Source: a virus. From it: a DNA stretch of 64,000 nucleotides. Under the pieces are notes generated by a model. The model had not been told where the DNA came from. It did no database searches and worked only from the letters and a program-made list of their open reading frames with translations. The position numbers and the translations under genes are program-made. Shown piece by piece: positions 20,910 to 64,000 of the stretch; the stretch's first letter is position 1, and every line of letters starts with the position of its first letter. The stretch is taken from positions 23,709 through 87,708 of IMG/VR virus record IMGVR_UViG_3300024231_000003. The stretch is one strand, 5' to 3'.

Positions 20910-21893
20910 ATGAAATTATTAAACCTAAAAGCCGCCGCAATGGCGACTATCGTAGCCTTTACGGCAAGTGCATCTGCAGCAGCAGAGTGCGAAGTAACTA
21001 TCGCTGAACCTAATTGGAGTTCAGGTCAATTTATGGCATATCTAGATAAGTTTGTTGTAGAAACAGCATTTGGCTGTGAAGCAGAACTAATGCCAGCAGC
21101 TTCTATTGCAGTAGCAACAAGTATGACTGAAAAAGGCACACCGCATATTGCTGGTGAATTTATTTCAGTAAGTGTTGGCGATGTTGTGGACCAAGCAATT
21201 GCTGAAGGAAAAATCCTTATTGCAAATGACGACCCATACCAAGGCGGCGCACAAGAAGGATTTTATGTATCTAAAAGTGTATTAGATGCAAACCCAGAAA
21301 TTAAAACAGTAGAAGATCTATTAGAACGTCCAGAACTAGTTGGCGGTAAAGTATTTTCTTGTCCAGGCGGTTGGGGTTGTAATGCTACAATGCGTAACAA
21401 TCTATTAGCACTTGATGTTGAATCAAAAGGCTTTGAAATTGTTGTTCCAGGATCAGGTGCAGCATTTGACGGTTCAATTGCAAACGCAGCACAACGTGGT
21501 ACTGGTTGGTTTGGTTTTTACTGGGCACCAGCAGGCATGTTAAGTAAGTTTGGAATGGTTCCATTACCAACTCGTGCAGGTTTTGCAGGTACAGATTATT
21601 GGACAAATTGTGCTACTGATTTAGAGTGTACTAATCCACAAGTATCAGATTTTCCAAAACCAACAATCCGTTCACTAACAGTACCAGAATTTGCAAATGC
21701 TAACCCAGCAATTGTAGCGTACTTAGCAAAACGTGACTTCTCAATTGAACAAATTAACTCATACTTAATTCAAATGGAAGCATCACAAGAAACAGCAGAA
21801 GAAGCAGTTGTATCATTCTTTAAAAATAACGAAGATGTATGGACAACATGGTTTACTGCAGAAACTGTTGCAAAAATTAAAGCAGCACTATAA
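20910..21893 (+). CDS. proX: Glycine betaine/proline-type ABC transporter substrate-binding protein
   Basis: 327 aa with a Sec signal peptide (cleavage near ASAAAE), hence periplasmic. The mature part follows the OpuAC/ProX layout: IAEPNWSSGQ at the start, a conserved CPGGWGCN segment, and GWFGFYWAPAG, where aromatic residues usually form the quaternary-ammonium cage. The permease follows 3 bp later, but no ATPase gene is in the window. It is an auxiliary metabolic gene probably acquired from a bacterium. Substrate specificity (betaine, choline or related) is inferred. Confidence 0.88.
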   Translation: MKLLNLKAAAMATIVAFTASASAAAECEVTIAEPNWSSGQFMAYLDKFVVETAFGCEAELMPAASIAVATSMTEKGTPHIAGEFISVSVGDVVDQAIAEGKILIANDDPYQGGAQEGFYVSKSVLDANPEIKTVEDLLERPELVGGKVFSCPGGWGCNATMRNNLLALDVESKGFEIVVPGSGAAFDGSIANAAQRGTGWFGFYWAPAGMLSKFGMVPLPTRAGFAGTDYWTNCATDLECTNPQVSDFPKPTIRSLTVPEFANANPAIVAYLAKRDFSIEQINSYLIQMEASQETAEEAVVSFFKNNEDVWTTWFTAETVAKIKAAL

Positions 21894-25992: not shown

Positions 25993-26760
25993 ATGCCAAT
26001 TATTAAAGAAACAGTTTTAGAAGTAAAGCATTACACAGATAGATTATTCCATATTACAACTACCAGAGATCCTAGTATACGTTTTAGAGATGGTGAGTTT
26101 TTAATGATAGGAATTGAAGTAGATGGAAAGCCATTACTTAGAGCATATAGTGTAGCAAGTCCAAGCCATCAAGAGACTCTAGAGTTTTTTAGTATTAAAG
26201 TACCAGACGGTCCACTTACCAGTCGTTTACAACATATACAGGTAGGCGATGAATTTTTAGTGAATTCCAAAGCAGTTGGCACACTAGTAGCTGATAACTT
26301 AAAACCAGGACGTAACTTATATCTTATGGGCACAGGTACTGGAGTTGCACCATTTTTATCAGTAGCACGTGGATTCGAAGCATATGAAAATTATGATCGT
26401 GTTATATTGATGTGGGGTACACGAGAAGTTGCAGAACTCCCGTTCATTGAATACTTTGATAATCTCAATGAAGATGAAACTTATGGTGAATTAACAGAAG
26501 GTAAGTTCTTGTTCTACCCAACATGTACTCGTGAGGAATTTAAAAATCAAGGACGAGTAACAACTGCAATGTATGAAGGTAAAGTACAACAAGTATTAGG
26601 TCTAGAGCCATTTGATGCAGAACATGATCGTGTAATGATATGTGGATCTCAGGAAATGAATATGGAATTACGCAAGTATTTTATAGATGATATGGGTTGT
26701 ACTGAAGGGAACGCAAATCATCGAGGAGAATTTGTGTTAGAGAAGGCATTTGTAGGATGA
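25993..26760 (+). CDS. fpr: Ferredoxin/flavodoxin-NADP reductase (Fpr type)
   Basis: 255 aa, full length. FAD binding is shown by RAYSVASP, NADP binding by GTGTGVAPF and MICGSQEMN, and the C-terminus EFVLEKAFVG is of the bacterial Fpr type found in proteobacteria. The enzyme moves electrons between NADPH and ferredoxin or flavodoxin. In this genome the obvious users are radical SAM enzymes and ribonucleotide reductase activation (inference). A 4-bp overlap couples it to an oxygenase-like gene. Confidence 0.92.
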   Translation: MPIIKETVLEVKHYTDRLFHITTTRDPSIRFRDGEFLMIGIEVDGKPLLRAYSVASPSHQETLEFFSIKVPDGPLTSRLQHIQVGDEFLVNSKAVGTLVADNLKPGRNLYLMGTGTGVAPFLSVARGFEAYENYDRVILMWGTREVAELPFIEYFDNLNEDETYGELTEGKFLFYPTCTREEFKNQGRVTTAMYEGKVQQVLGLEPFDAEHDRVMICGSQEMNMELRKYFIDDMGCTEGNANHRGEFVLEKAFVG

Positions 26761-32506: not shown

Positions 32507-32848
32507 ATGTCCAATACTAAAACTTATACAAGTCCTGCTGAAAAGTACAGCATTGGCGGAGTATATTCACTGCAAGACATTAAATATGACTTGCTGAAAA
32601 TTATTGAGCCACATGACGGCTTAATGTATAATCGTAAAGATACTGAGAAAGTAAAACAGATCTTTTCGTCATATCTTACAGATCTACAACGATCTTGGAA
32701 GATGCGTGATCACTCAATTTATATTTCAGAAAAAGCAAATGCTTTTACCTTTGATATTGAAATTCGTATTCACAAAGATCGCAGCCCTAAGAAGCTGAAG
32801 ATCCACGTAGGTAAACTTGTTCACTATCGTGATCGTAAGACAGCCTAA
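32507..32848 (+). CDS. Unknown protein, 113 aa
   Basis: Not recognised. Basic and strand-rich in the second half (AFTFDIEIRIHKD...KLKIHVGKLVHYRDRK), which could suit nucleic-acid contact. It touches the next gene by 1 bp and lies between the QueD-like and nucleotidyltransferase genes. Confidence 0.6.
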   Translation: MSNTKTYTSPAEKYSIGGVYSLQDIKYDLLKIIEPHDGLMYNRKDTEKVKQIFSSYLTDLQRSWKMRDHSIYISEKANAFTFDIEIRIHKDRSPKKLKIHVGKLVHYRDRKTA

Positions 32849-33615
32849 TGAAAACCATTGTTCTAGTCACCGGTGGATTTGATCCACTACACAAAGGCCA
32901 TATCGCTTATTTTGAAGCGGCACGTACTTTGGGCGATGAACTTTGGGTAGGCGTAAACAGTGATGAATGGTTGACCCGTAAGAAAGGTCAACCGTTTATG
33001 CCTATGCAAGACCGTTGTGCAATTGTTAATGCACTTGGATGTGTTGATCAAGTTATTGGATTTAATGACGATGATAACAGCGCAAGCGGTGCAATATTTA
33101 CTACTCAATCAATGAATGGTAACATAAAATTAATCTTTGCTAATGGCGGAGATAGAAATGCAGGAAATATACCAGAAATGGACGCATATAGTCATGACCC
33201 CAATGTTGAATTTGCATTCGGTGTAGGTGGCGAAGATAAAAAGAATAGTTCATCTTGGATTTTAAAAGAGTGGCAAAAGCCAAATACTACTCGACTATGG
33301 GGCAATTATACTGTATTAGATAAACAAGACACTTGGCAAGTTAAAGAGCTATGCTTTGATGTTGGCAAATCATTATCAGATCAGCGTCACTTTGTTCGTA
33401 GTGAACATTGGTGTGTAGTTGATGGACTAGTTAAAATGGAACTAGAATACCCTAATGGTGATAAACTATCAAAAACATATGGTCCAGGTGAGAGTATTGA
33501 TATCCCTACAATGACATGGCATAAAGCCACTAATAGTGGAGATGTACCTGCTAAAGTGGTAGAAGTTTGGATGGGTACTACATTACAAGAAGATGATATT
33601 GAAAGAAGAGATTGA
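32848..33615 (+). CDS. Cytidylyl/adenylyltransferase fused to a cupin domain
   Basis: 255 aa with two domains. Residues 1-135 form a nucleotidyltransferase: GGFDPLHKGH carries the H-x-G-H motif that activates CTP or ATP, as in RfaE/TagD-type enzymes. Residues about 145-250 form a cupin like the C-terminus of mannose-6-phosphate isomerase/guanylyltransferase proteins (SLSDQRHFVRSEHW, GPGESIDIPTMTWH). The pair suggests activation and isomerisation of a sugar or polyol phosphate. Overlaps the aldolase gene by 4 bp. Confidence 0.8.
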   Translation: MKTIVLVTGGFDPLHKGHIAYFEAARTLGDELWVGVNSDEWLTRKKGQPFMPMQDRCAIVNALGCVDQVIGFNDDDNSASGAIFTTQSMNGNIKLIFANGGDRNAGNIPEMDAYSHDPNVEFAFGVGGEDKKNSSSWILKEWQKPNTTRLWGNYTVLDKQDTWQVKELCFDVGKSLSDQRHFVRSEHWCVVDGLVKMELEYPNGDKLSKTYGPGESIDIPTMTWHKATNSGDVPAKVVEVWMGTTLQEDDIERRD

Positions 33616-34421
33616 TGGATACTAGATTTATTGCGGCACTAGATCAGAGTGGTGGATCAACACCAGGTGCATTAGACAACTATGGTGTAGAATACACTGA
33701 ACATAATATGTTTGATAAGATTCATGACATGCGTATGCGTATGGTTAACTCACCAGACTTTAATGACAAAAACATCTGGGCGGCAATCCTCTACCAAGAC
33801 ACAGTCACCCGTGGCATGGTTAATGTGCTTGACGAAAAAGGTATTGACACGTTCCTAAAGATTGACAGTGGTTGCGAGGAAAGCGGATTGCTCAAACAGT
33901 TTCCAGTAAAGCAGATGTTGGAGTGGGCTACTAACGGTATTGGTCCTAAGATTTATGGTACAAAGATGCGTAGCATTGTTAAAGGTGTAAGCATGGTACA
34001 TCCTGTACTCAAACAACAGTTTACACTTGCTCGTACTATTTGGGAGCATGGGCTTGTACCAATCATTGAGCCCGAAGTACCTATCGACAATCCTATTAAA
34101 GCTAAAGTTGAATCAGCTCTTATGCATCACTTGCAAGAGTTCTTGGATGAGTTTCCAGGTAAATGTATTCTCAAACTAACACCGCCAGAAGTACCTAACT
34201 TGTATCACAACCTTACCGTGTTTCCTAATGTAGAACGTGTTGTGTTCCTTAGTGGCGGATATGCTACAGCAGAAGCATGTAACAAACTTGGATTAAACGA
34301 CAATGTCACTGCCAGTTTTAGTAGAGCATTAAGTGAGGGTCTAAAGTATTCATTGACAGACGAAGAGTTTGATGTTAAAATAAGACAAAATATTAAAATG
34401 ATAACAGAGGCAAGTGCATGA
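33612..34421 (+). CDS. Class I fructose-bisphosphate aldolase-like
   Basis: 269 aa. ALDQSGGSTPGAL at the N-terminus and the Schiff-base strand CILKLTPPEVPN are hallmarks of class I fructose-1,6-bisphosphate aldolases. VVFLSGGYAT matches the phosphate-binding loop. It is somewhat shorter than cellular homologues (about 295-350). It is co-translated between a nucleotidyltransferase-cupin and a glycosyltransferase, so it may build a sugar precursor rather than serve glycolysis. Confidence 0.82.
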   Translation: MMDTRFIAALDQSGGSTPGALDNYGVEYTEHNMFDKIHDMRMRMVNSPDFNDKNIWAAILYQDTVTRGMVNVLDEKGIDTFLKIDSGCEESGLLKQFPVKQMLEWATNGIGPKIYGTKMRSIVKGVSMVHPVLKQQFTLARTIWEHGLVPIIEPEVPIDNPIKAKVESALMHHLQEFLDEFPGKCILKLTPPEVPNLYHNLTVFPNVERVVFLSGGYATAEACNKLGLNDNVTASFSRALSEGLKYSLTDEEFDVKIRQNIKMITEASA

Positions 34422-42143: not shown

Positions 42144-43040
42144 ATGAAACTAAGATATAGTGAAGCATTTTATAGTGTGCAAGGCGAAGGTAAATTTGTA
42201 GGAGTACCTAGCGTATTCTTACGTACATTTGGTTGTAACTTACGTTGTATGAATTTTGGCCTTGGCAGAGATGAACCATCTCGTGCAGAAAAACATGCAG
42301 GCGGTCAACGCTATAATGAAGAAGTGAAAGCACTGTTAGATGCAGGTGTAGATAAAACAACTAAAGAGTTTAACGACTTGCCCATTATACATACTGGTTG
42401 TGATACGTATGCAAGTATATATCCAGAGTTTAAACATTTTAATAAAGAAGCAACTATTGACGAAGTAGTTGAACATTTACTATCACTTACTCCTAATGGA
42501 AAGTGGGTACAGGATAATGGACAGGATGTCCATTTAATTTTAACGGGTGGAGAACCGTTGCTAGCCTGGCAACGACTTTACGTAGAACTATTTGAACACC
42601 CTAGAATGAAGGATTTAAAAAATGTTACTTTTGAAACAAATACAACACAACATCTCCATGATGATTTTTTCCATTACCTCAACAGCACAGATAGGTTTAC
42701 AGTTACTTGGAGTTGTTCGCCTAAACTCAGCACCTCAGGAGAAGATTGGAATGATGCTATTAAGCCTCTTGTTGCTAACGAGTATTCCCGTGTTAATGGC
42801 AGTGAGCTTTACTTTAAATTTGTCGTTGCTAATAATGCAGATTTTGATGAAGTGGAAAAAGCTGTCAGTGCTTATCAGAATGCCGGGCTTCAATGTCCAG
42901 TATATCTTATGCCAATGGGCGGACGCAGTGAAGAATACAATCTCAACGTTACTGACGTGGCTGAAATATGTATGGAAAAAGGATGGAGATTTACACCAAG
43001 ACTCCACATATCACTCTTCGGAAATGCCTGGGGAACTTAA
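42144..43040 (+). CDS. queE: 7-carboxy-7-deazaguanine synthase (radical SAM) with split cluster motif
   Basis: 298 aa, longer than the usual 210-230. EAFYSVQGEGKFVGVPSVFLR is typical QueE and LTGGEPLL is the SAM-binding strand. The cluster motif is odd: C31-N-L-R-C35 is followed by M-N-F instead of x-x-C, and the C-D-T that normally follows appears at C86-D-T after a 50-residue insertion. The third cluster ligand is probably C86. QueE converts carboxytetrahydropterin to CDG, the preQ0 precursor, in line with FolE and the DpdA-like gene. Confidence 0.88.
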   Translation: MKLRYSEAFYSVQGEGKFVGVPSVFLRTFGCNLRCMNFGLGRDEPSRAEKHAGGQRYNEEVKALLDAGVDKTTKEFNDLPIIHTGCDTYASIYPEFKHFNKEATIDEVVEHLLSLTPNGKWVQDNGQDVHLILTGGEPLLAWQRLYVELFEHPRMKDLKNVTFETNTTQHLHDDFFHYLNSTDRFTVTWSCSPKLSTSGEDWNDAIKPLVANEYSRVNGSELYFKFVVANNADFDEVEKAVSAYQNAGLQCPVYLMPMGGRSEEYNLNVTDVAEICMEKGWRFTPRLHISLFGNAWGT

Positions 43041-44568: not shown

Positions 44569-44959
44569 GATAGACGAGTATGCTGAAGAATTTAGTTTTT
44601 TAGATGATGATGATAGATTAGTGCATCTCATTGATATGGCTAAAAACTCACCAACTAGTTTACCAGAAGAATTACGTACTGATGATAGACTAGTAACTGG
44701 ATGCATGAGTCAAATATGGGTTGATGTAGGAGTAAAAGATAACATTGTTAACGTTTATTACGATAGTGATGCAATCATTACTAAAGGCATAACCAAAGTA
44801 GTATGTGACTGTTTTAGCGACATAACTGTAGAACAGGCAAAAACTATTACCAAAGATGACTTTGAAAAATTACAAATTAAAGAACTATTATCAGCAGTAC
44901 GCAGAAATGGTTTGGGAAGTTTAATTTCCACAATTACAAATAAGGTAAAACAATTATGA
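44552..44959 (+). CDS. sufE: SufE-like cysteine desulfurase partner
   Basis: 135 aa, normal for SufE. The sulfur-accepting Cys is in VTGCMSQIW (about residue 53), followed by the SDAIITKGI strand and a C-terminal RRNGLGSLIS helix, all in family order. SufE carries persulfide from SufS to the SufBCD scaffold for Fe-S cluster assembly. GGAGG 6 bp before ATG 44552 decides the start. The adjacent metK suggests service to radical SAM enzymes (inference). Confidence 0.9.
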   Translation: MSSLNKIDEYAEEFSFLDDDDRLVHLIDMAKNSPTSLPEELRTDDRLVTGCMSQIWVDVGVKDNIVNVYYDSDAIITKGITKVVCDCFSDITVEQAKTITKDDFEKLQIKELLSAVRRNGLGSLISTITNKVKQL

Positions 44960-46059
44960 ATCAGAACTATATTTTTACGAGCGAAAGTGTTAGCGCAGGA
45001 CATCCAGATAAGGTTGCAGACCAAATCAGTGATGCTCTAGTTGATGCCGGGTTCAAAGCAGGCGATGAAACAACTCGTGTTGCTGTTGAAACACTTGTAA
45101 CTACCAATCATGTAACATTGGCGGGCGAAGTAAAAAACTTTAACGTAACTACGGAAGAAGTTGAACAAATTATCCGTAACAAGGTTAAAGAGATTGGTTA
45201 CGAACAAGATGGATTCCATTGGGAAAAGTTAACTATTAATAATCAAACTATTAATAATAAACTACACAGCCAAAGTGCAGATATTGCTCTAGGCACAGAC
45301 GACTTTGGTGCAGGCGATCAGGGTATTATGTTTGGTTATGCATGTAACGACAACGATGCATACCTTCCAGCTCCTATCTACTACGCACACGAAGTTTTAA
45401 AAGAGTTAAATAAAGAACGTGCAATTACAAATATTCTTGGACCAGATGCCAAGTCACAAGTAAGTGTACAATACGAAGGTGGCAAAGTACAACGTATCGA
45501 TCAAGTTGTAGTTAGTACACAACATACAGAAGGCAATGTAGAACTAGCACGTGATTTATGCAAACAGTCTGCAATGGAAGTCCTTGGAGATTTAATTGAT
45601 GAACAAACTACATGGCATCTTAACCCTACTGGAAACTTTGTTATTGGCGGTCCTGACGGTGATGCTGGTCTTACTGGGCGAAAAATTATTGTTGATACTT
45701 ATGGGGGTTTTGCTCCTCATGGTGGCGGTGCGTTTAGTGGCAAAGACCCAACAAAAGTAGACCGTAGTGCAGCTTATATGGCACGTTGGTTAGCAAAGAA
45801 CGTAGTAGCAGATGAAATGGCAGACTGGTGTAACATTCAGTTGTCGTATGCTATTGGTGTAAAGCAACCAACTAGTATCTATGTTGAGTCTAATGGATAT
45901 AGTAAGAGCATTGAAAAGTTTATTCGTGAGAATATTGATTTATCACCAAAAGGAATCATTGACAGATTTGATATGTTCAACTATTATAGTTATAGTGAAA
46001 ATTGTACATATGGGCATTTTGGCGATAAAAATGTACCGTGGGAAAAGATAGGATGGTAA
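44956..46059 (+). CDS. metK: S-adenosylmethionine synthetase
   Basis: 367 aa. Signature motifs are complete: ESVSAGHPDK, GAGDQGIMFGYA, GPDGDAGLTGRK and GGGAFSGKDPTKVDRSAAY. The enzyme makes SAM from methionine and ATP. It is slightly shorter than the bacterial 380-390 aa. It overlaps sufE by 4 bp, placing SAM supply and Fe-S supply in one operon. Confidence 0.96.
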   Translation: MNQNYIFTSESVSAGHPDKVADQISDALVDAGFKAGDETTRVAVETLVTTNHVTLAGEVKNFNVTTEEVEQIIRNKVKEIGYEQDGFHWEKLTINNQTINNKLHSQSADIALGTDDFGAGDQGIMFGYACNDNDAYLPAPIYYAHEVLKELNKERAITNILGPDAKSQVSVQYEGGKVQRIDQVVVSTQHTEGNVELARDLCKQSAMEVLGDLIDEQTTWHLNPTGNFVIGGPDGDAGLTGRKIIVDTYGGFAPHGGGAFSGKDPTKVDRSAAYMARWLAKNVVADEMADWCNIQLSYAIGVKQPTSIYVESNGYSKSIEKFIRENIDLSPKGIIDRFDMFNYYSYSENCTYGHFGDKNVPWEKIGW

Positions 46060-54071: not shown

Positions 54072-54920
54072 ATGACTAATAGAAAAGATGATAATAAAGG
54101 CGCCCAATGGGAAACATCAGACAATACTAAGTTTGAAGTTGTATTGGGCGACTATGGCACAGTGCCAGAAGATATTAACTATTACATGAAAGAAAGTGTA
54201 ATGGCACGTTATCCAGAAGTTACATTATTTGACTTCTTACGTGAGCGACCAGATAAAGAATGGATTAAATTCTGTGAAGAAACTGGTGCTAATTTAACTG
54301 ATGAGCACAATGCCGCAGACTATTACCAAGGAAACTTCAAATCAATTGCTGATAACAAAGATAAATGGATTCAGTGGATGTTGGATAACGAAGATACTTG
54401 CCAGAAGAAGTTTACTGAAAAGCGCCCATATCACGCAGGTGTTAATGAGCTTACACTAAACTTACCAATGAAATGTGGATACAACTATGCAAACAATTGC
54501 GAATACAATTGGGGACTATATGGAGACTCTGCAAACCAAATTAAGCAAATGGTTGGGCAAAAGATGTTTGACGAACTTGGAATGGATATGGAAACATGCC
54601 TACCACGTTTGTTAGCATACATGCCTGGACAAACGCTTCCATGGCACTTTGACTTTATGGGCAATTGGTATCGTATTAACGAACACCTAAACCCTAATGC
54701 AGAAACTCGCCGTTGTGATGGCGGTAAGATTGTTCGTTACTTGGTGTTTATTTCAGATTGGCATTGGGGGCATATGTTACAAATGGCAAATACCTTCTAC
54801 CCAAAATGGCAAAGTGGAGATGTTTATGAATTACCTGAACATGTTTATCATCTAAGCACAAATGCTGGTATGAGTGTTAAATTCTCGTTGAGTTTAACAG
54901 GATATTTACCTGGCACCTAA
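54072..54920 (+). CDS. 2OG-Fe(II) oxygenase-like protein (paralogue group A, divergent)
   Basis: 282 aa. Candidate iron ligands are H192-x-D194 (LPWHFDFMGN) and H260 (EHVYHLSTNAG), with a basic K270 for 2OG. The segment ISDWHWGHMLQMANTFYPKWQSGD aligns by eye with the group A motif at 18843 and 55944. The N-terminal 120 residues are an extra domain. Function unknown. Confidence 0.68.
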   Translation: MTNRKDDNKGAQWETSDNTKFEVVLGDYGTVPEDINYYMKESVMARYPEVTLFDFLRERPDKEWIKFCEETGANLTDEHNAADYYQGNFKSIADNKDKWIQWMLDNEDTCQKKFTEKRPYHAGVNELTLNLPMKCGYNYANNCEYNWGLYGDSANQIKQMVGQKMFDELGMDMETCLPRLLAYMPGQTLPWHFDFMGNWYRINEHLNPNAETRRCDGGKIVRYLVFISDWHWGHMLQMANTFYPKWQSGDVYELPEHVYHLSTNAGMSVKFSLSLTGYLPGT

Positions 54921-54935
54921 GAAGAAAGTACTAAA

Positions 54936-55226
54936 ATGCCTATTGAGCGTAAAGACAGATCATTTGATCTAATATTTGACCAAGTCAGTATGGATGTTAT
55001 GCCAGCTGAATATATTATTGAAATCTATCTTAGTCTAATTGATGGTTCAAAATTAACGATAACTCGTGATGAACTATCAATGATAGAAGGCGGTAGCAGC
55101 AACGTTATGTCTGCAATTGCTAGAGAAGACTTAATGGATGTTCAAGTTAAATTAGATTACGAAGCTATTAAGCGAGACGTAGTAACTGGTGTAGGCGACT
55201 ACCTTGGTAAATATTTCAACAACTAG
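54936..55226 (+). CDS. Unknown acidic protein, 96 aa
   Basis: Alternating strands and helices (FDLIFDQVSMDVMPAEYI; DGSKLTITRDEL). It is last before the strong terminator at 55241. No family recognised. Confidence 0.6.
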   Translation: MPIERKDRSFDLIFDQVSMDVMPAEYIIEIYLSLIDGSKLTITRDELSMIEGGSSNVMSAIAREDLMDVQVKLDYEAIKRDVVTGVGDYLGKYFNN

Positions 55227-55289: not shown

Positions 55290-55940
55290 ATGAAAAATAT
55301 ATGGTTTTGTGGCGTTCCTGGTAGTAAGTGGAGTGGAATTGATATCCAACTACGTAAAGTAGTAGGAGCAGATACTACAGACGAAACACCTGATAGAACT
55401 CAATATCACAGACCTAGAAACCCATCAGACACAAACAATGGACACCGTGGTAGCTATTGGGGACCTGGTATGGGCTGTGGCGAAGACTGGACGGACTTTA
55501 ACTATGTTGAACCTCACAAATTACAAGACGATATTAATAATGTATTCTCTGGCACTGGTCCACGAGTAATTAAAAGTCATTTCTTTGCAAGACATTTTAA
55601 TTTAGACTATTTGTATAATCACTTTCCAGGTGATGATATTGTACTGTGTTATAGAGAAAATCAAAAGAGCTTTGCATGGTGGAGTGAAGTAATGGACTTT
55701 AGTGATGGGCATTACCCAGACTATCGCCCAGGATACACAGACTATAATAATATGCGTCAACATATTTGGAACGAAAATGCAAAGATAACAGACTTTGCAA
55801 TGCGTAAAGATATGAAATGGCAATGTTATAGTCCAGAGTTTTCATTTGCTGAGCTAACAGGTTTCAATCCACAGACAGCTAAATACATGGAAGATAGATG
55901 GGACGATGTATACATCGCAACCTGCAAAATTCCGGAGTAA
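55290..55940 (+). CDS. Sulfotransferase-like protein
   Basis: 216 aa. WFCGVPGSKWS is the PAPS 5'-phosphosulfate loop of sulfotransferases, and VIKSHFF followed by IVLCYRENQKSFAWW matches the strand and Arg/Ser segment that binds the 3'-phosphate. It heads the last plus-strand operon, next to an oxygenase-like and two radical SAM genes. Acceptor unknown. Confidence 0.68.
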   Translation: MKNIWFCGVPGSKWSGIDIQLRKVVGADTTDETPDRTQYHRPRNPSDTNNGHRGSYWGPGMGCGEDWTDFNYVEPHKLQDDINNVFSGTGPRVIKSHFFARHFNLDYLYNHFPGDDIVLCYRENQKSFAWWSEVMDFSDGHYPDYRPGYTDYNNMRQHIWNENAKITDFAMRKDMKWQCYSPEFSFAELTGFNPQTAKYMEDRWDDVYIATCKIPE

Positions 55941-55943
55941 TAA

Positions 55944-56648
55944 ATGCCCTCACCTTTTAAGCAACCTTGGCACTTTGACAATAATCGTCAAGACAGTGAA
56001 GGTGAATATTCTAAAATTTTTGGAGTATTTACAGGTGATTGGACTAAAGACATTTTAGAAGCTCGTGCTATTGGTGTAAACAAGCAACTATATAATGAAC
56101 AGCGATATGAACATGCTGCAAATAACAAAAGCGAAAATCATATAGAAGAAGATAAAGAAAACCCAGATGGTAAACCATCATCTGTAATGTTTCGCAAAAT
56201 AAATTTTGATAAATATCCAGAACAGTGTAGTACCTTTAACCGTATTACTTCGTTTTTACAATTTAATACAGCAGAAAAACTAACACAAAAATTTAACGAT
56301 CAATATCCAAATGATCAACTCATGTGGCACATTGATAACTTACCAGGCAATCCACGCAAGGAACGAGTTATTGATAATCCAGAGTTTCAATACCAACATT
56401 CAAATAAAATTAGAATTTTAATTATGTTAGAAGATTGGGAACCAGGACAGTTGCTACAATTTGGAAACCGCATGTATACCCAATGGAAAGCCGGAACAGC
56501 TATTACATGGGAATGGAGTACATTGCCACATGCTACCTGGAATGGTAGTTGGAAAAAAAGACCCGCACTCCAACTAACAGGAAGTGCTAGTGATGCAACA
56601 TGGGACATTATTAATAATGGCTCTGCAGAAACTATTTACAATATTTAG
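55944..56648 (+). CDS. 2OG-Fe(II) oxygenase-like protein (paralogue group A)
   Basis: 234 aa. Candidate ligands H129-x-D131 (MWHIDNLPG) and H196 (TLPHATWNG), with R206 for 2OG. The central motif LIMLEDWEPGQLLQFGNRMY...WKAG is the closest match to the 18843 protein. In both places a radical SAM gene follows at once, a repeated gene pair. Confidence 0.72.
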   Translation: MPSPFKQPWHFDNNRQDSEGEYSKIFGVFTGDWTKDILEARAIGVNKQLYNEQRYEHAANNKSENHIEEDKENPDGKPSSVMFRKINFDKYPEQCSTFNRITSFLQFNTAEKLTQKFNDQYPNDQLMWHIDNLPGNPRKERVIDNPEFQYQHSNKIRILIMLEDWEPGQLLQFGNRMYTQWKAGTAITWEWSTLPHATWNGSWKKRPALQLTGSASDATWDIINNGSAETIYNI

Positions 56649-56656
56649 GAATTACA

Positions 56657-58087
56657 ATGAGTGAACAAAAAAAATTACCAAGCGATACATTTTGTATTTT
56701 ACCATGGATTCATTTATCAACAAGACCAGACGGCAGTATGAGAGTATGTTGTACCGCTAACGCTAGTGCTGTTGGTGCAACAAATGATAAAGTACATGGC
56801 GGCAGAGTTGGTATTGTTAAAACAGAAGATGGCAAGCCGGCTAATCTAAACACAACTGATTTAAATACTAGTTGGAATAATACATATATGAGAAGTGTAA
56901 GGCAACAAATGCTTGCAGGTGAAAAACCAGCCAGTTGCTTAAAGTGCTATAAAGAAGAAGATGCAGGACATGTTAGTAAACGTCAGTGGGAAACTGCTTA
57001 TTGGCAACGTGATGGTATTGATGTAGATGAGTTAGTTGCACAAACATTTGAAGATGGCAGTACAACTAGTAAGTTACGTTACATTGATATTCGTATGGGT
57101 ACAAAATGCCAACTAGGTTGCGTTATGTGTAGTCCACATGATTCAAGTGGTTGGATCAAAGACTGGCAAGGTATGTATCCTAAAATTACAAACGAAACTT
57201 TAAAAGAGACAATGGTTTGGGCTAACAAAGGTAAAGAGTTTGGTGCAAGTTATAATTGGCATAAAGATAATCCAGTATTTTGGGATCAGTTTTATGCACA
57301 GATTCCCTATATGCGTCAGCTATATTTTGCAGGTGGCGAAAGTACTGTTATTGAAGAACATTATGAGATCTTAGATAAAGTTATTGAAATGGGATATGCA
57401 CACCAGATTGAAGTACGTTACAATTCAAATGGTATTGAGCTTCCTGATCGTTTACTAGAACAATGGAAACATTTTGAAAAAGTAAGATTCCATTATAGTA
57501 TTGACAGCATTGGCGAGATGAATGATTATATTCGTTACCCAAGTGAATGGTCACATCAACTTAAAATGTTTGAACGTTTAGATACTAAAACATCAAACAA
57601 TGTAGAAATTACAATTGCATGTGCCGTTAACGCTCTTAATATTCATTACATTCCAGACTTCCTAAAGTGGAAGCTAACTGAGAGTGGACTAAAGAAAACA
57701 AATATGTGGCCATTTGGTGCAGGTGGTATTAACTATCACTTTGTATACTGGCCTGGACATTTAAATGTTAAAGTACTACCAGATGAATTCCTAGACAAGA
57801 CTGAAGCCAAGTACGAAGAATTTATTGAATGGTGGAAAGAAAATTGGGAACTTGGTGTTCCTAGTTGGCACAAAGGCAAAGTATCATATGATGATTGGGA
57901 AAATGCAAGCTATGGAATCAAACGCTTACGTGGTATGATTAATTTTGCACGTAGTGAAGATTGGTCAAGACGACTTCCAGAATTTAGAGAATATATTAAC
58001 AAATTAGACGAATTGCGTGGAACAGACTTCCGTGCTACTTTCCCAGAAATGGGTTACTTATTAGACGAACCAGAGGACAAAAAATGA
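56657..58087 (+). CDS. Radical SAM protein (F-C-x-x-P/twitch subfamily)
   Basis: 476 aa, the longest of the subfamily. N-terminal FCILPWIH...VCCTAN and SCLKC (residues 13-97), radical SAM motif CQLGCVMC (Cys 151, 155, 158), FAGGES in place of FAGGEP, and SIDS. The C-terminal 130 residues have an extra Trp-rich helical region. It pairs with the upstream oxygenase-like gene and overlaps the nucleosidase gene by 4 bp. Confidence 0.86.
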   Translation: MSEQKKLPSDTFCILPWIHLSTRPDGSMRVCCTANASAVGATNDKVHGGRVGIVKTEDGKPANLNTTDLNTSWNNTYMRSVRQQMLAGEKPASCLKCYKEEDAGHVSKRQWETAYWQRDGIDVDELVAQTFEDGSTTSKLRYIDIRMGTKCQLGCVMCSPHDSSGWIKDWQGMYPKITNETLKETMVWANKGKEFGASYNWHKDNPVFWDQFYAQIPYMRQLYFAGGESTVIEEHYEILDKVIEMGYAHQIEVRYNSNGIELPDRLLEQWKHFEKVRFHYSIDSIGEMNDYIRYPSEWSHQLKMFERLDTKTSNNVEITIACAVNALNIHYIPDFLKWKLTESGLKKTNMWPFGAGGINYHFVYWPGHLNVKVLPDEFLDKTEAKYEEFIEWWKENWELGVPSWHKGKVSYDDWENASYGIKRLRGMINFARSEDWSRRLPEFREYINKLDELRGTDFRATFPEMGYLLDEPEDKK

Positions 58088-58638
58088 TATATGTATTAGT
58101 AGCTCTAAAAGGCGAATTGCCAGAGCATAATTTAGACCCAGAAACATACAAAGTATGGTATACAGGAGTAGGCAAAGTTAATGCAACTATGTTTGCTACC
58201 ATGGCTTGTATTCAACGTGATTGCACCGCAGTTATTAATTATGGTACAGCAGGAGTAATAAACAAAGATCTTATTGGCAACTTAAACAAGGTTGCAGTAG
58301 TAAGACAGCGTGACATGGATGGACGTCCACAAGCAGAGCTAGGTACAACACCTTTTGAAGAAACAGGTATCCAAGGTGATATTGTTACAGCGAATAGCGG
58401 TGTGGTATTAAGTACAGGTGATAATTTTGTAATGGAAACTCCAGAATTAGAAAGCGATCTAGTTGATATGGAAGGATACGCAATTGCAAAAGTATGCAAA
58501 CACTTTAGTAAATCTTTACTAATGTTAAAGTATGGTAGTGATATGGCAGATAGTGATGCTGCAAAAACTTGGGAAGAAAACCAAGCAGATGGTGCTGAAC
58601 TGTTTTTGGAGCAGCTTAAAGCATTAGAAAATGTCTGA
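58084..58638 (+). CDS. 5'-methylthioadenosine/S-adenosylhomocysteine nucleosidase-like
   Basis: 184 aa, shorter than cellular MTAN (about 230). The PNP-superfamily motifs are TGVGKVNAT, NYGTAG, VDMEGYAIAKV (ribose-binding Met-Glu) and the catalytic Asp region YGSDMAD. The family cleaves adenine from MTA, SAH and 5'-deoxyadenosine, the last a by-product that inhibits radical SAM enzymes. It lies between two radical SAM genes with 4- and 8-bp overlaps, which strongly suggests a support role here. Confidence 0.85.
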   Translation: MIYVLVALKGELPEHNLDPETYKVWYTGVGKVNATMFATMACIQRDCTAVINYGTAGVINKDLIGNLNKVAVVRQRDMDGRPQAELGTTPFEETGIQGDIVTANSGVVLSTGDNFVMETPELESDLVDMEGYAIAKVCKHFSKSLLMLKYGSDMADSDAAKTWEENQADGAELFLEQLKALENV

Positions 58639-59896
58639 TAAATCAGGATTTTGCGCACTACCATTTGTACAATACAGTACATATAATGGTGGGCGTTATA
58701 GACTTTGTTGTATGGCAAAGGAACCAGAAACTCTTGTTGACCAAGAGAAGCTAGGTATACAAGGAACATGGAACCACGATTACATTAAAGATGTGCGTAG
58801 ACGCATGGCAGAGGGAGAATGGCTGCCTGAATGTGTTGAATGCCAACACTTGGAACGTAACGACATCGTAAGCTCACGACAGTGGGAAAATGAAGTGTGG
58901 GAAGACGTAATTAACGAAGTAGTGGCTGATGCTTCGGTTAACGATTGGGAGGTTGAACAACCTTTACAATTTGATTTCAGGCTTGGCAATTTGTGCAATT
59001 TACAGTGTCAAATGTGCAACAAAGAAGCATCACATTTAGTGAGCGTAGAGAGAGCAACAATGGTCAAAAGCGGACTCGGGGTGGACCACTCTGATTGGCA
59101 TGGACAAATTGCAGACAAGAAGCGGGCTCTTCTTCAACCTGGAATAGACTGGACGAGCTTCAAGGACATGATAAAAAAAGCTCGAAAAATAAAACTAATA
59201 GGCGGGGAGCCAACTGTAGCAGCAGATATGTTTAAACTGCTGGACATCGCCGTAAACTCCGGACATGCCCATCACATCGAACTTAGTTTTTATACTAATA
59301 TTACTAACATGCAGGACCGTTGGCTCGACCAGCTAAGTAAATTCGAAAAAGTGATCGTAAACTGTAGCTTGGAGGGCATGGAGGACATGAATGATTATTT
59401 GCGTCCACCCTCCAAGTGGTCTTCTGTTTGGAAGAACTTTGATAAGCTAGTTAAGTTTACAAATACCAAAGAAGGCAAAAATATTAAAGTAAGAGTAACC
59501 ACTGTTAACCAAGTTACTAATGCATTGCACATTGCAGACTTCTGGCGCATGATGCACGAATATCAAATGAAAAGCGATAGGGGTATTGGTATGAGTTCTA
59601 ATCAACTTATTGAACCACACTACTACAGTATGGCACACGCTCCTGAATGGCTTAAAGAAGAGCAACGTAAAGGTATACTAGAGTTCCTAAACAGTATTGA
59701 CAATAGTCCACATTTTGAGGATTATGAAGAACCACTGATGGAAATTGTTAATTTTGGATTAGATCCAGAACATCAATACAGTCCTGTTATTATGAAACAG
59801 TATGTTGAAGTAACAGAAAATTACGATATATTCCGTGGGCATGATGTTATGACAGTAGCCCCAGAATTTAAACGTATTAAAGACGATTTAGATTAA
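58631..59896 (+). CDS. Radical SAM protein (F-C-x-x-P/twitch subfamily)
   Basis: 421 aa. N-terminal FCALPF...LCCMAK and ECVEC (residues 8-71), radical SAM motif CNLQCQMC (Cys 122, 126, 129), LIGGEP and the SLEG strand. The gene's first two thirds (about 58780-59440) use more GC-rich codons than anything nearby, then return to the local AT-rich style, which suggests a recombined segment. It converges with the minus-strand gene at 59877 (20-bp overlap). Confidence 0.87.
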   Translation: MSDKSGFCALPFVQYSTYNGGRYRLCCMAKEPETLVDQEKLGIQGTWNHDYIKDVRRRMAEGEWLPECVECQHLERNDIVSSRQWENEVWEDVINEVVADASVNDWEVEQPLQFDFRLGNLCNLQCQMCNKEASHLVSVERATMVKSGLGVDHSDWHGQIADKKRALLQPGIDWTSFKDMIKKARKIKLIGGEPTVAADMFKLLDIAVNSGHAHHIELSFYTNITNMQDRWLDQLSKFEKVIVNCSLEGMEDMNDYLRPPSKWSSVWKNFDKLVKFTNTKEGKNIKVRVTTVNQVTNALHIADFWRMMHEYQMKSDRGIGMSSNQLIEPHYYSMAHAPEWLKEEQRKGILEFLNSIDNSPHFEDYEEPLMEIVNFGLDPEHQYSPVIMKQYVEVTENYDIFRGHDVMTVAPEFKRIKDDLD

Positions 59897-60947
59897 TTTC
59901 TTTAAAATTCATGTAACGCTTTTCTTCAGTATATTTAAATAATATTTCTTCAGCATTAGCAATTTCAGGATATGCTTCTGGTTTTCCAAATACTGCATCT
60001 GCGACTTGCAATTTATTTTCTTCAGTAATACGATGATACTCTTGTGCATCTGTATTCTTTTTAAAGTCAAGTGAACTACCAGTGTATTCCTTGCACACAG
60101 TGCTGTCAGACAGAGCGTCTAAGCTAGATGGCATATAGCCACTTAATACTACTATCACACGCTTATGGTGTTTGGCAGCATACCTGCATACTTTTTTAAG
60201 TGTATCCTCGCAACGCCATCTGGAGTGATAAATGTTTTTTCCACCTAAATTATCAATCCAAGCTTCTGTTAAGTTACCCATACGTAGCCCTAACTTTGCA
60301 TAATGTTGATCATTATGGAAGTTATTATAAATTACATATGCAGTATCATTGTTACTATCTGGTTGTGCTACTGTTTTGTGCTTACGTTTTCCAACTCTAA
60401 ATAATACACTTCTCTTTTCAGTATGTAACTCAGGAACGTCATGCCAACTAAAAGGAGTTGCCTGTAAACTATAAAACATATTAGGTTCACAATTTAATCG
60501 TTTGTTTCCACTTGCATCTCTGTTAAGCAAACGAACACCTTGGTCACTACTATCCATATATATTTGATTAGTAATTAACCATCTAAAATCTTTTAGGTCA
60601 TTGTGTATACCAAGACTACTTCCTGGTAAGTCGTAATGGCAATTTACATAATGATGATCGTATGAATAAACCTTTCCAAGCGAAGCAGTCATTACTTCTG
60701 ATAATACATTATCTCTTATATATTCTACTATTTCTTGATCATACGCTAATTCAGGAGTTTCAGGCCAGGAATCCAAAGGCGCACTAAATGTACCTTCCAA
60801 TGCACTCTCATGTTCTGGAACTTCTGGATTCATACAATAATCTTTGATGTACTGAACTGGATATTCTTCATAATAACGTTTGAAAAACTTTTCAGGTAAA
60901 TAATTTTCACTAATATGGTATTGGAATGGTATATTGTATTCTTTCAT
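59877..60947 (-). CDS. 2OG-Fe(II) oxygenase with extra C-terminal domain
   Basis: 356 aa. Residues about 1-190 are a P4H-like oxygenase: H115-x-D117 (LGIHNDLKD), H169 (FSWHDVP), and basic R179/R184 for 2OG. Residues 190-356 form a second domain (AYVIYNNFHND, RVIVVLSGYMPSSL) with no family I recognise. It touches the upstream oxygenase-like gene by 1 bp. Confidence 0.75.
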   Translation of the reverse strand: MKEYNIPFQYHISENYLPEKFFKRYYEEYPVQYIKDYCMNPEVPEHESALEGTFSAPLDSWPETPELAYDQEIVEYIRDNVLSEVMTASLGKVYSYDHHYVNCHYDLPGSSLGIHNDLKDFRWLITNQIYMDSSDQGVRLLNRDASGNKRLNCEPNMFYSLQATPFSWHDVPELHTEKRSVLFRVGKRKHKTVAQPDSNNDTAYVIYNNFHNDQHYAKLGLRMGNLTEAWIDNLGGKNIYHSRWRCEDTLKKVCRYAAKHHKRVIVVLSGYMPSSLDALSDSTVCKEYTGSSLDFKKNTDAQEYHRITEENKLQVADAVFGKPEAYPEIANAEEILFKYTEEKRYMNFKEINLNRL

Positions 60948-61780
60948 TATAGGCCTCTAATTCTTTCTTTCATACATAATTCTGGAAACTGTAAACTTTC
61001 ATTTAAGATATCTGCTTCGAAACATTGTAGTTTTGTACCAAATACAATTTGATGTGTTATCCACTGTGCATTAAAGAACCATACATCACCTGGATCGAAT
61101 GTAATATAATGAAGAGGGTGGTGGAATTGATCCCATTTCTCTTCATTCCATACGCAACGGTTGCGCATTTCAGTAATAAATTTGTGTATGTCATTTTTAT
61201 CTAATTCCTCTAAGTTAAATTGTTCTTTATATTGATTGTACATTTGCTCCAAGTCTGGTCCAAATGTCAGTACACGTGGACGCTTTTTATCTAATTGAAC
61301 AAACATACGCATTTGTTGTTCATTACCAGTGTGCGCCTCATCTAACTCATCCAAGTGTAGTTTGTTTTCCACTAGTGTATTATATCTGTGAGATAACATA
61401 CGCTCATTTGTTTTGTACTTTGGAAATATTTTATCAAATATCTCATTCCAACCCGTAGTAGCTTGTTTATGTTTCTTGTGAAACTTGTCAATTTGTTCCT
61501 CACTCCAGTTACGTTCATCACGTAGTCTGTCACGCTTTTTAATATGACTGTTATACCAAGGCATAATCCACTTGTTGTCTGGAATAGTCCAATCTGGTAA
61601 ATTATCATAATAGTCGTAGTCTAAGTTTGGAATAGTTAAATTTTTAATAACTACAGGCCAACCACTCTCAAAACACTTGTATATTTCGTCATTATGTGTT
61701 ATACTTTCGATATCACTGGCATCAAACTGATGTACTGTGAAATCCTGAGCGGCCTTTGAATCTAGTGCAATTCTAGTCAT
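60947..61780 (-). CDS. 2OG-Fe(II) oxygenase-like protein
   Basis: 277 aa. A candidate H142-x-D144 (NKLHLDELDEAH) and distal H243 (QWITHQIVFG) after the strand DPGDVWFFNA suggest a cupin-type iron oxygenase, although spacing is looser than in the other members. It heads the two-gene minus operon opposite the amidinotransferase gene and shares its palindromic promoter. Confidence 0.58.
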   Translation of the reverse strand: MTRIALDSKAAQDFTVHQFDASDIESITHNDEIYKCFESGWPVVIKNLTIPNLDYDYYDNLPDWTIPDNKWIMPWYNSHIKKRDRLRDERNWSEEQIDKFHKKHKQATTGWNEIFDKIFPKYKTNERMLSHRYNTLVENKLHLDELDEAHTGNEQQMRMFVQLDKKRPRVLTFGPDLEQMYNQYKEQFNLEELDKNDIHKFITEMRNRCVWNEEKWDQFHHPLHYITFDPGDVWFFNAQWITHQIVFGTKLQCFEADILNESLQFPELCMKERIRGL

Positions 61781-61802
61781 GTCGTCTCCATTAATTATAT
61801 TA

Positions 61803-61824
61803 GTTGATAAATATATTTATCAAC
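61803..61824. promoter_or_regulatory. Palindromic bidirectional late promoter
   Basis: A perfect 22-bp palindrome places GATAAATA on both strands (plus 61806-61813; mirrored on minus at 61814-61821), exactly between the divergent oxygenase-like and amidinotransferase genes. Each gene's ribosome site follows. Confidence 0.6.
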
Positions 61825-61841
61825 AATAAAAAGAGGTAAAT

Positions 61842-62906
61842 ATGAAACCAGTAAACGCATGGAGTGAATTCCAGCCACTAAAGAAGGTTGTACTAGGCGC
61901 ACCCTTTCCACCAGAGACATTTGATTGGCATAAAGATGAAGAAACACGCAATGTTATGCGCCAAATTTTTGAAGAGACTGCAGAAGATATAGCAGAGCTA
62001 GAAAAGATTTTAGTTGAGCATGGTGTTGAAGTAGTACGCCCAAAAAATATCTTTACTATTACAGGTGAAGAACAAATACAACTACCATGGATGCATTGTG
62101 GTTTTCCTAATCACCCACTAATGCCACGTGATACACTTATGCCATACGGTAATACAATTTTTGAATGTTTTACTGGTGGTGACAATCGTTACTTTGAGAA
62201 TCTTGCATATTACGATCATTGTAGTAAATGGTTTAGTGAAGGTGCGGATTGGGTTAGTATGCCAGGTGTAATGATTGATAGTAAATCATATGAAGATTAT
62301 GAGAACAAAGGCAGAGTATTATATCACGCAGCTAATATGATTAAATGTGGAGACACAGTATTGTTTAGTCAGACATGGGACGAAGATAATAAAAAAGGCA
62401 AAGGTACTAATCTTGGTAAGCAATGGATGAAGCGTGAACTATCACAGCGTTATCCAGGTACTAAGTTTTTAGATATTCCAGTTGGCGGACATGCTGATGG
62501 TAAAATTGCACTACTCAAGCCAGGTGTACTGATGACATGGAATGCAAAATGGGTTCCAGAAGAAATGAAAAATTGGACTATTATTGAAGTTAACGATAAT
62601 CATGAAATGCCAGAAGATTTCTTAAACACACGTAAACGCCGCTTCTATAAAGACTATGTAGAAAAATGGTTGGGACATTGGGTTGGATATGCAGACGAGA
62701 GTGTATTCGATGTTAACGTATTATCGCTAGATGAAAAAACTGTTATCTGTACAGGACGTAACGAAGCTGCATTTGCAGAAATGAGAGCTAATGGAATTGA
62801 GCCTATTGTATGGCGTTTTCGTCACCAGTATTTCTGGGATGGCGGCATTCATTGTTTAACAAGTGATGTACAACGTGAAGGCGATTGTGAGAGTTATATA
62901 AGCTAA
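61842..62906 (+). CDS. Amidinotransferase-family protein (glycine amidinotransferase-like)
   Basis: 354 aa. The family's catalytic residues are visible: Asp in MPRD, His in PVGGHADGKIALL, and nucleophile C338 in GGIHCLTSDVQREG. These enzymes move an amidino group from arginine to an amine such as glycine. The GIHC-x-T-x-D-x-x-R-x-G end is standard. It overlaps the next radical SAM gene by 1 bp, so the two products probably serve one pathway. Acceptor amine unknown. Confidence 0.86.
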   Translation: MKPVNAWSEFQPLKKVVLGAPFPPETFDWHKDEETRNVMRQIFEETAEDIAELEKILVEHGVEVVRPKNIFTITGEEQIQLPWMHCGFPNHPLMPRDTLMPYGNTIFECFTGGDNRYFENLAYYDHCSKWFSEGADWVSMPGVMIDSKSYEDYENKGRVLYHAANMIKCGDTVLFSQTWDEDNKKGKGTNLGKQWMKRELSQRYPGTKFLDIPVGGHADGKIALLKPGVLMTWNAKWVPEEMKNWTIIEVNDNHEMPEDFLNTRKRRFYKDYVEKWLGHWVGYADESVFDVNVLSLDEKTVICTGRNEAAFAEMRANGIEPIVWRFRHQYFWDGGIHCLTSDVQREGDCESYIS

Positions 62907-63940
62907 TGCTAGACCAAATGAAATGGGCAAGTACTGTAAGAGAGATACAACTTGACGCAACGTCATATTGTAATGCTGGTTGTGGAACATGTGTTCGCTT
63001 TAAAGTGGGATCATGGGACTTACACCAGTCTATAGTACTTGAACATTTTGACATGGATACATGGACAAAGTTAGTAACTAAGGATATTAAGGATACCAGA
63101 ATAGATACTATATTCTTTAATGGTAATTGGGGAGATGCATGTATGCACCCCAAACTAATAGACATGGTTAAGTTAGCTTTGGAAGAAAATCCAAAACTTG
63201 GAATAAAAATATCTACTAATGGTAGTTTGCGTACCACTAAGTGGTGGGAAGAATTAGCACGTGTACTTGGCAAAAGAGGACATGTTATTTTTTGTATAGA
63301 AGGTGTTGATCAAGAAACACATGGTAAATATAGACAGAAGACATTTTATAAAAAAATTATAGAAAATCTTACAGCATTTAATAACGCAGGCGGAAATTCA
63401 GTTTGGATGATGACTGCATTTGATCATAATATCCATCAAATTGATCAAGCACGAGAATTAGCCAAACAACTTGGATGTGCCAGATATACTACTAGACGAA
63501 GTCATGATGATAATATTGTTTTTGAAACACATAATGTAACTACTGATAATGTAAAAAAAGAACATATTGGAATTACAAGTTTTGGTCCAGTTCATTTCTC
63601 GCCAGTAGATGCTAAACAGTTTCCAGATCAAGTATCAACACAATGTTCATTCTACAAAATTGGTAGTATACAAATAGACCCACACGGAACAGTATGGCCA
63701 TGCTGTTATATTAGTCAATACCGTTGGGGCATGGAAGAAGATGGTAAAGATTTAAAAACTCCAGAACTAAATGATAATGCACCATTTCTTTCTGAGAAAT
63801 TTAATTTAAAAAATAAAGCACTTACTGACATATTACAGGATGTATGGTATGCCAACAAATTAGCAGGTGCAATCAATACTGCTAGTTGGGACGTTTGTAC
63901 ACGAAACTGTAAAATAAAACCAGTAGTTGAGGAAATATAA
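62906..63940 (+). CDS. Radical SAM protein (SPASM-like)
   Basis: 344 aa. The radical SAM motif CNAGCGTC (Cys 22, 26, 29) is N-terminal, FNGNWGD takes the G-G-E-P position, STNGS follows, and the tail has WPCCYIS and CTRNC Cys as auxiliary-cluster ligands. Same architecture as the protein at 12999. It is co-translated with the amidinotransferase and followed at once by another radical SAM gene. Confidence 0.86.
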   Translation: MLDQMKWASTVREIQLDATSYCNAGCGTCVRFKVGSWDLHQSIVLEHFDMDTWTKLVTKDIKDTRIDTIFFNGNWGDACMHPKLIDMVKLALEENPKLGIKISTNGSLRTTKWWEELARVLGKRGHVIFCIEGVDQETHGKYRQKTFYKKIIENLTAFNNAGGNSVWMMTAFDHNIHQIDQARELAKQLGCARYTTRRSHDDNIVFETHNVTTDNVKKEHIGITSFGPVHFSPVDAKQFPDQVSTQCSFYKIGSIQIDPHGTVWPCCYISQYRWGMEEDGKDLKTPELNDNAPFLSEKFNLKNKALTDILQDVWYANKLAGAINTASWDVCTRNCKIKPVVEEI

Positions 63941-64000
63941 TGAATATGGATTGGGCCAGAGTTGTTAATAATTTGCAAGTTGACTTAACTAGTTATTGTA
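63940..64000 (+). CDS. Radical SAM protein, 3' truncated by window edge
   Basis: Only 20 codons are visible, starting one base into the upstream stop (TAATG) with GAGGAAA before it. The peptide aligns with the start of the 62906 protein (MDWARVVNNLQVDLTSYC versus MKWASTVREIQLDATSYC), so the last Cys is the first ligand of a C-x3-C-x2-C motif. It is probably a tandem duplicate. Confidence 0.7.
   Translation, partial: MNMDWARVVNNLQVDLTSYC

Follow-up and report, generated by a model that had tools for sequence, protein, structure and literature searches.

A radical SAM-rich gene cluster in a probable T4-related marine phage and its possible role in glycoconjugate tailoring

The stretch of DNA analysed here, hereafter the window, comprises 64,000 nucleotides (bases 23709-87708) of the 87,708-base viral record IMGVR_UViG_3300024231_000003, and it closes with a dense block of genes for modification enzymes, among them radical S-adenosylmethionine (SAM) proteins and an amidinotransferase homologue, amt (Table 1). 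Nine open reading frames (ORFs), nearly all of them for enzymes, were confirmed between 55290 and 63940, with neighbours overlapping by 4, 8, 20, 1 and 1 nucleotides. The tight packing and enzymatic character that had been noted in a first reading of the letters alone (the sequence-only reading) therefore stand. Because the window end is also the contig end, the block is cut there, and it is the left part only of a larger cluster. In relatives, which come from 41 loci related to amt and found in viral contigs, the cluster runs on for 10-20 kb past the equivalent of the window end, with more radical SAM genes, a pyridoxal phosphate (PLP)-aminotransferase-like gene, two glycosyltransferase and methyltransferase-like proteins and one aspartyl hydroxylase. 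The phage recombinase is nearest (61-68%) to those of large phages such as Phosso, Atu_ph07 and CBB, which suggests a phage of the T4-related superfamily as the source. A comparison with 50,697 phage records gave no close nucleotide match for the last 24 kb of the window; in phage records amt was matched at low identity only and oxC, x12 (a gene of the continuation in relatives) and the 96-aa protein upstream of the block were not matched.

Table 1. Features of the cluster and its surroundings, in window positions
Feature	Coordinates	Strand	Description
metK	44956..46059	+	S-adenosylmethionine synthetase; TIGR01034 417.6 bits, cut-off 309.4; 10.6 kb upstream of rs1
oxA	54072-54920	+	HxD-type oxygenase-like; just upstream of block, cluster membership uncertain
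96-aa conserved protein	54936-55226	+	just upstream of block, cluster membership uncertain
'sulf'	55290..55940	+	conserved 216-aa protein; 61-87% identical in 9 aligned relatives
oxB	55944..56648	+	2-oxoglutarate (2OG)-Fe(II)-oxygenase-like, HxD...H motif only; optional in relatives
rs1	56657..58087	+	twitch-domain radical SAM protein; NF033640 419 bits, cut-off 170
nuc	58084..58638	+	methylthioadenosine (MTA)/S-adenosylhomocysteine (SAH)/5'-deoxyadenosine nucleosidase-like; PNP_UDP_1 8e-15; overlaps rs1 and rs2
rs2	58631..59896	+	twitch-domain radical SAM protein; NF033640 286 bits, cut-off 170
oxC	59877..60947	-	2OG-Fe(II)-oxygenase-like (H115, D117, H169), extra C-terminal domain; optional
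oxD	60947..61780	-	2OG/JmjC-type oxygenase-like (H142, D144, H243)
perfect 22-nt palindrome	61803..61824	.	between divergent oxD and amt; two back-to-back ATAAATA
amt	61842..62906	+	pentein amidinotransferase homologue (HsvA/StrB/SxtG/AGAT)
rs3	62906..63940	+	radical SAM protein, C-terminal SPASM-like region; PF04055 1.1e-7; 1-nt overlap with amt
ferredoxin-NADP reductase-like flavoprotein	25993..26760	+	PF00175/PF00970; PRK10926 below cut-off

The gene order of the cluster is conserved. Where the flank is long enough, nearly all related loci share the core rs1 ... amt-(rs3)-x2rs-plp, and in clade A it is followed by x8rs-x9rs-x12-x13-x15ox, where x15ox is a Pfam aspartyl/asparaginyl hydroxylase. 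Exceptions are L020 (contig G014) and, less surely, the near relatives L004 and L005 (in all three, amt comes after oxD and away from rs1), as well as the distant L041; plp is absent from some clade-B loci. The cluster nuc is a clade-A gene, and rs2 and oxD are found in L034 and L035 too. Scattering or independent loss of the genes in close relatives had been named beforehand as the observation that would speak against a cluster: the core rs1-amt-x2rs is unscattered bar these few loci, whereas the presence of oxB (in 9 clustered loci, the window counted), oxC, 'sulf', nuc and rs3 varies independently, and a second amidinotransferase is likewise optional. Purifying selection is strong, with dN of 0.08-0.13 vs dS of ~1.3 or more for rs1, rs2, oxD and amt. 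In one relative (G012) the cluster spans ~28 kb, and ~14 kb upstream of its rs1 lies a tryptophan-halogenase family protein with a WYL_2 domain (L061:4008-5453). A methyltransferase-like family, c14, also recurs near these clusters; its member at L004:7157-8407 repeats a unit of ~24 residues (AVIEQNLHSIFRLL...) about six times in tandem, with a copy number that differs between relatives.

Radical SAM proteins dominate, with 7-25 NF033640 (N_Twi_rSAM) matches per related viral contig. rs1 is the most conserved gene of the cluster (64-90% identity in phages, 51% in a marine metagenome-assembled genome (MAG)) and carries its CxxxCxxC motif at 151/155/158; rs2 is 78-88% identical within clade A. 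rs3, whose lineage is variable, shares 38-45% identity with the relatives compared; its SPASM match is weak, and an NF033640 score of only 31 bits makes it a PF04055 member outside that subfamily. The sequence-only reading had placed two SPASM-like genes after amt; one radical SAM gene lies there in the window, while the second is found past position 64000, in relatives only. Further radical SAM genes of the window lie at 6824, 11263, 12999 and 19498, and 14210-16084 (+) encodes a B12-binding radical SAM protein resembling KedN5-type C-methyltransferases. In a QueE-like protein at 42144-43040 (+), an insertion of ~50 residues seems to part the second and third cluster-binding cysteines (CNLRCMNFG...HTGC).

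The same module is found on bacterial chromosomes. Two Bdellovibrionia MAGs (L050 and L051), one of them on a 917-kb contig, carry x9rs-plp-amt-x2rs-hydroxylase-x13-like-hydroxylase, the island homologues being those of amt, plp, oxD, x13 and the Asp-hydroxylase, and the two genomes hold 33 and 31 NF033640 matches, the weakest of which are marginal. In a quick tree of the radical SAM paralogues, the long branches of which are unsure, starred branches join at least six phage lineages to Bdellovibrionia members, and the partner of rs1 is a gene of a marine Chloroflexi MAG. These results point to a conserved multi-gene module whose paralogues would have distinct roles, and not to recent duplication within phages; because both the paralogue set and the gene order recur in two Bdellovibrionia chromosomes, a shared multi-step module is favoured over random cargo. 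A prophage origin of the Bdellovibrionia island is disfavoured, since genes for a carboxyltransferase, UDP-sugar pyrophosphorylase, protein kinase and primary sigma factor are among those typed in its flanks. Viral DNA binned in error could account for the Chloroflexi contig; multi-domain glycosyltransferase/FkbM methyltransferase proteins lie downstream of its radical SAM island (L060:13811-19898).

The amt profile matches the structures of HsvA, StrB, SxtG and AGAT with E values of 1e-40 to 1e-48 (HsvA, 1.5e-48), and D97, H217, D219 and C338, the catalytic Cys, His and two Asp positions, are invariant. At the position equivalent to AGAT Asp254 the window protein has His162, and all members of the main clade, those of Bdellovibrionia among them, have His as well; the CP220 and Chloroflexi MAG homologues have Asp there, and second phage amidinotransferase copies (L006:4275-6627, L041:5771-7778) have Ser or Asp. 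The pentein homology and most catalytic residues agree with the proposal that amt could guanidinylate an amine, but a catalytic Asp is His throughout the clade, so that guanidine transfer is doubtful. At 95% identity 26 amt proteins are distinct, and related viral contigs carry one to three amidinotransferase genes each, some as split matches.

The cluster is accompanied by genes of SAM metabolism. nuc matches MTAN structures (7e-16), and its E11, E130 and D153, invariant in the alignment, correspond to the Glu, Glu, Asp set that we take, from established knowledge of MTAN, to be catalytic. It falls below the curated NCBIfam MTA/SAH nucleosidase equivalog cut-off (57 bits vs 169), and its best NCBIfam model, PRK05634 'nucleosidase', does not reach its own (92 bits vs 129). 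metK, present in 14 of the 25 records searched, occurs in 13/15 viral contigs with the cluster nuc vs 1/8 without it (Fisher p 0.001, uncorrected for relatedness), and both cluster-nuc contigs without metK end within ~10 kb of rs1. Since 5'-deoxyadenosine is an inhibitor of radical SAM enzymes (PMC8102628), a nucleosidase between rs1 and rs2 would make biochemical sense, and MetK and the nucleosidase may together provide SAM supply and by-product removal for the cluster. The ferredoxin-reductase-like gene, shared by this phage and 5 relatives, is a possible electron source; an A-type Fe-S carrier is found in 11 of the viral contigs searched, and not in this contig. Core order kept in nearly all relatives, a module common to bacterial chromosomes and accompanying SAM-supply genes together support well the suggestion, already made from the block alone, of a biosynthetic or tailoring cluster.

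The remaining genes of the block are less readily assigned. The HxD...H motifs of oxC and oxD are conserved in alignments of relatives, and none of the block's oxygenase-like genes has a Pfam, PHROG or NCBIfam match. Because the oxD model is of low confidence (pLDDT 62), its best fold matches, mostly 2OG oxygenases at an E value of only 0.03, argue weakly for the double-stranded beta-helix fold, and PDB profile searches with oxD, oxC, plp, x12, x13 and 'sulf' returned chance matches only. 'sulf' had been taken for sulfotransferase-like; it has no Pfam, PHROG, NCBIfam, PDB or PF00685 match and does not align to an annotated phage sulfotransferase, and in view of this lack of homology to 3'-phosphoadenosine-5'-phosphosulfate-dependent sulfotransferases that identity was rejected. 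The 96-aa protein adjoins 'sulf' or rs1 in 13 clustered loci, the window counted.

Between oxD and amt lies the longest exact palindrome of the window, the core of which, ATAAATATATTTAT, occupies the identical intergenic site in most clade-A relatives examined. It looks like back-to-back T4-type late promoters, NATAAATA being the late promoter motif of S-PM2 (PMC2984593), and this resemblance makes late, divergent transcription of the cluster from the palindrome the likely reading. The motif occurs at only 4 intergenic sites in the window, two of which are the palindrome itself, with no clear enrichment upstream of other genes, and the late-promoter claim therefore leans on positional conservation. 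Of the shared palindromic promoter put forward in the sequence-only reading, the perfect palindrome and its conserved position hold, and the promoter role is a matter of resemblance to the T4-type late motif.

Taken together, we infer with moderate confidence that the cluster encodes a common, late-expressed, multi-step pathway, with its steps in order, that tailors a glycan or glycoconjugate in a T4-related marine phage. Twitch/SPASM radical SAM enzymes, numerous and related yet non-redundant, would act stepwise on one scaffold, on which Fe(II)/2OG-type oxygenases and methyltransferase-like, glycosyltransferase-like, PLP-aminotransferase-like and amidinotransferase-fold enzymes would also work. 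MetK would make SAM, and the nucleosidase would clear 5'-deoxyadenosine, SAH and MTA and so keep them from inhibiting the enzymes; ferredoxin reductase and the A-type Fe-S carrier may help in some relatives. The scaffold would most likely be a glycan or glycoconjugate, e.g. a surface or virion polysaccharide. A glycoconjugate is favoured over a peptide or small molecule because of the x12 model, the sugar-gene neighbours of amt and the location of related cassettes. The x12 model (pLDDT 85) best matches viral and cellular glycosyltransferases (the PBCV-1 capsid glycosyltransferase, E 2.9e-3, probability 0.98) and methyltransferases, its closest viral models being uncharacterised phage proteins; the amt homologue adjoins KdsA/KdsB in cyanophage S-SCSM2R and lies near nucleotide-sugar transferase-like genes in CP220; the island of the Chloroflexi MAG is followed by glycosyltransferase and FkbM genes; and the radical SAM cassettes of pelagimyophages are placed in the host-recognition region (PMC7029224).

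Several observations weigh against this reading. The glycosyltransferase similarity of x12 is weak, none of its PDB matches falling under E 0.001, and both x12 and x13 lie outside this contig. As phages and islands often carry glycosyltransferase genes, finding such a context in S-SCSM2R, in CP220 and in the MAG could be coincidence. The Asp-to-His change makes the amidinotransferase activity of amt doubtful. Clade-B phages without the cluster nuc, and mostly without metK, yet keep rs1-amt-x2rs, so that the SAM-supply genes are not obligatory. Among the product classes offered at the outset (amino acid, peptide or glycan), the evidence, which is circumstantial, leans towards a glycoconjugate.

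Other products were therefore weighed. Maturation of peptides is the typical role of SPASM/twitch enzymes, and the radical SAM enzymes might modify residues of one peptide or phage protein, to which the hydroxylases and aminotransferase- and amidinotransferase-like enzymes would add changes, much as for a ribosomally synthesised and post-translationally modified peptide (RiPP). The weak similarity to the PapB, mycofactocin and DynA maturases, the conserved 96-aa protein directly upstream of the block and the tandem short repeats of family c14 would fit; but RiPP clusters normally need few radical SAM enzymes, vs 10-25 here, neither a peptidase nor an exporter was noticed in the block, and no precursor peptide common to all relatives was noticed among small ORFs viewed in passing, without a systematic precursor search. 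On balance we consider a peptide product unlikely. A small, diffusible guanidino metabolite made by the amidinotransferase, aminotransferase and oxygenases, as in streptomycin-type pathways, appears distinctly improbable: the profile matches of amt to HsvA, StrB, SxtG and AGAT and the PLP-fold gene a few genes downstream in relatives are in keeping with it, but His replaces the AGAT Asp254 equivalent across the clade, radical SAM enzymes make up most genes, and neither a synthase nor any carrier, adenylation or transport gene came to notice.

That the genes are unrelated cargo piled up in a hypervariable island, with no common pathway, would explain why many of them are present or absent among relatives, and pelagimyophage radical SAM cassettes do lie in hypervariable islands (PMC7029224). 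The conserved core order, strong purifying selection and recurrence of the paralogue set with its neighbours in bacterial chromosomes leave this explanation little credence. Hypermodification of phage nucleic acid seems to us the least probable of all. T4-related phages modify DNA and a QueE-like gene is also present in the phage, but the cluster does not include that gene, no partner for base modification was noticed within the block, the module is chromosomal in Bdellovibrionia, and 10-25 radical SAM enzymes exceed, to our knowledge, any base-modification pathway.

Two loci elsewhere in the window are recorded here. At 32848-34421 (+) a cytidylyltransferase fused to a mannose-6-phosphate isomerase cupin domain is followed by a class-I aldolase-like gene, possibly nucleotide-sugar genes, and at 20910-21893 (+) a glycine-betaine-type substrate-binding protein (OpuAC, 2.5e-40) precedes a likely membrane protein.

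Phage genomes are compact, and up to 25 radical enzymes of the same family per contig, together with a viral SAM supply, therefore imply an important product. More speculatively than for glycan tailoring as such, we propose an undescribed radical SAM assembly line, common to phages and Bdellovibrionia, in which 10-25 non-redundant twitch/SPASM enzymes, oxygenases, an altered amidinotransferase and glycosyltransferase-methyltransferase proteins might make a new class of heavily modified glycoconjugates, powered in phages by viral SAM synthesis and by-product clearance. Such a cluster would make new radical chemistry tractable to study, could connect unusual surface chemistry with phage host-recognition or exclusion, and would help account for the radical SAM islands of Bdellovibrionia, for which no published function was found.

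Parts of this system are already known from CP220/CPt10, from a T4-like genome with 12 radical SAM genes and from phage VP_139; no description of the conserved core order, of the module shared with bacteria, of the replacement of Asp by His or of the cluster's link to SAM supply was found in the literature searched, which excluded subscription papers and preprints. amt shares with AGAT, StrB, SxtG and HsvA the fold family and the Cys, His and two Asp positions, and its clade differs at the Asp254 equivalent. Campylobacter phages CP220 and CPt10 carry an interchangeable cluster of five radical SAM genes and a glycine amidinotransferase (PMC2853527): the functional mix in a T4-related phage is the same and the amidinotransferase likewise adjoins radical SAM genes, but it is 26% identical and keeps the Asp, the radical SAM proteins are distant, and neither nucleosidase nor metK was found. 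A T4-like viral genome from the environment, with 12 radical SAM genes plus an Fe-S carrier (PMC5332604), and the radical SAM cassettes of pelagimyophages (PMC7029224) show a similar multiplicity of radical SAM genes in marine T4-like phages, along with the A-type carrier that is found in relatives here; the accessible parts of these two papers describe no pathway, amidinotransferase core or SAM cycle. Lake Baikal phage VP_139 has MetK, an MTA/SAH nucleosidase and radical SAM genes, interpreted as support for pyrroloquinoline quinone and methylation (PMC7678222); it pairs SAM supply with SAM clearing alongside radical SAM genes, as the window phage does, with no cluster structure described in the available text. 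The Bdellovibrionia islands lie, unlike the phage cluster, on chromosomes among housekeeping genes, and they share with it the order x9rs-plp-amt-x2rs-Asp-hydroxylase and several orthologous radical SAM lineages.

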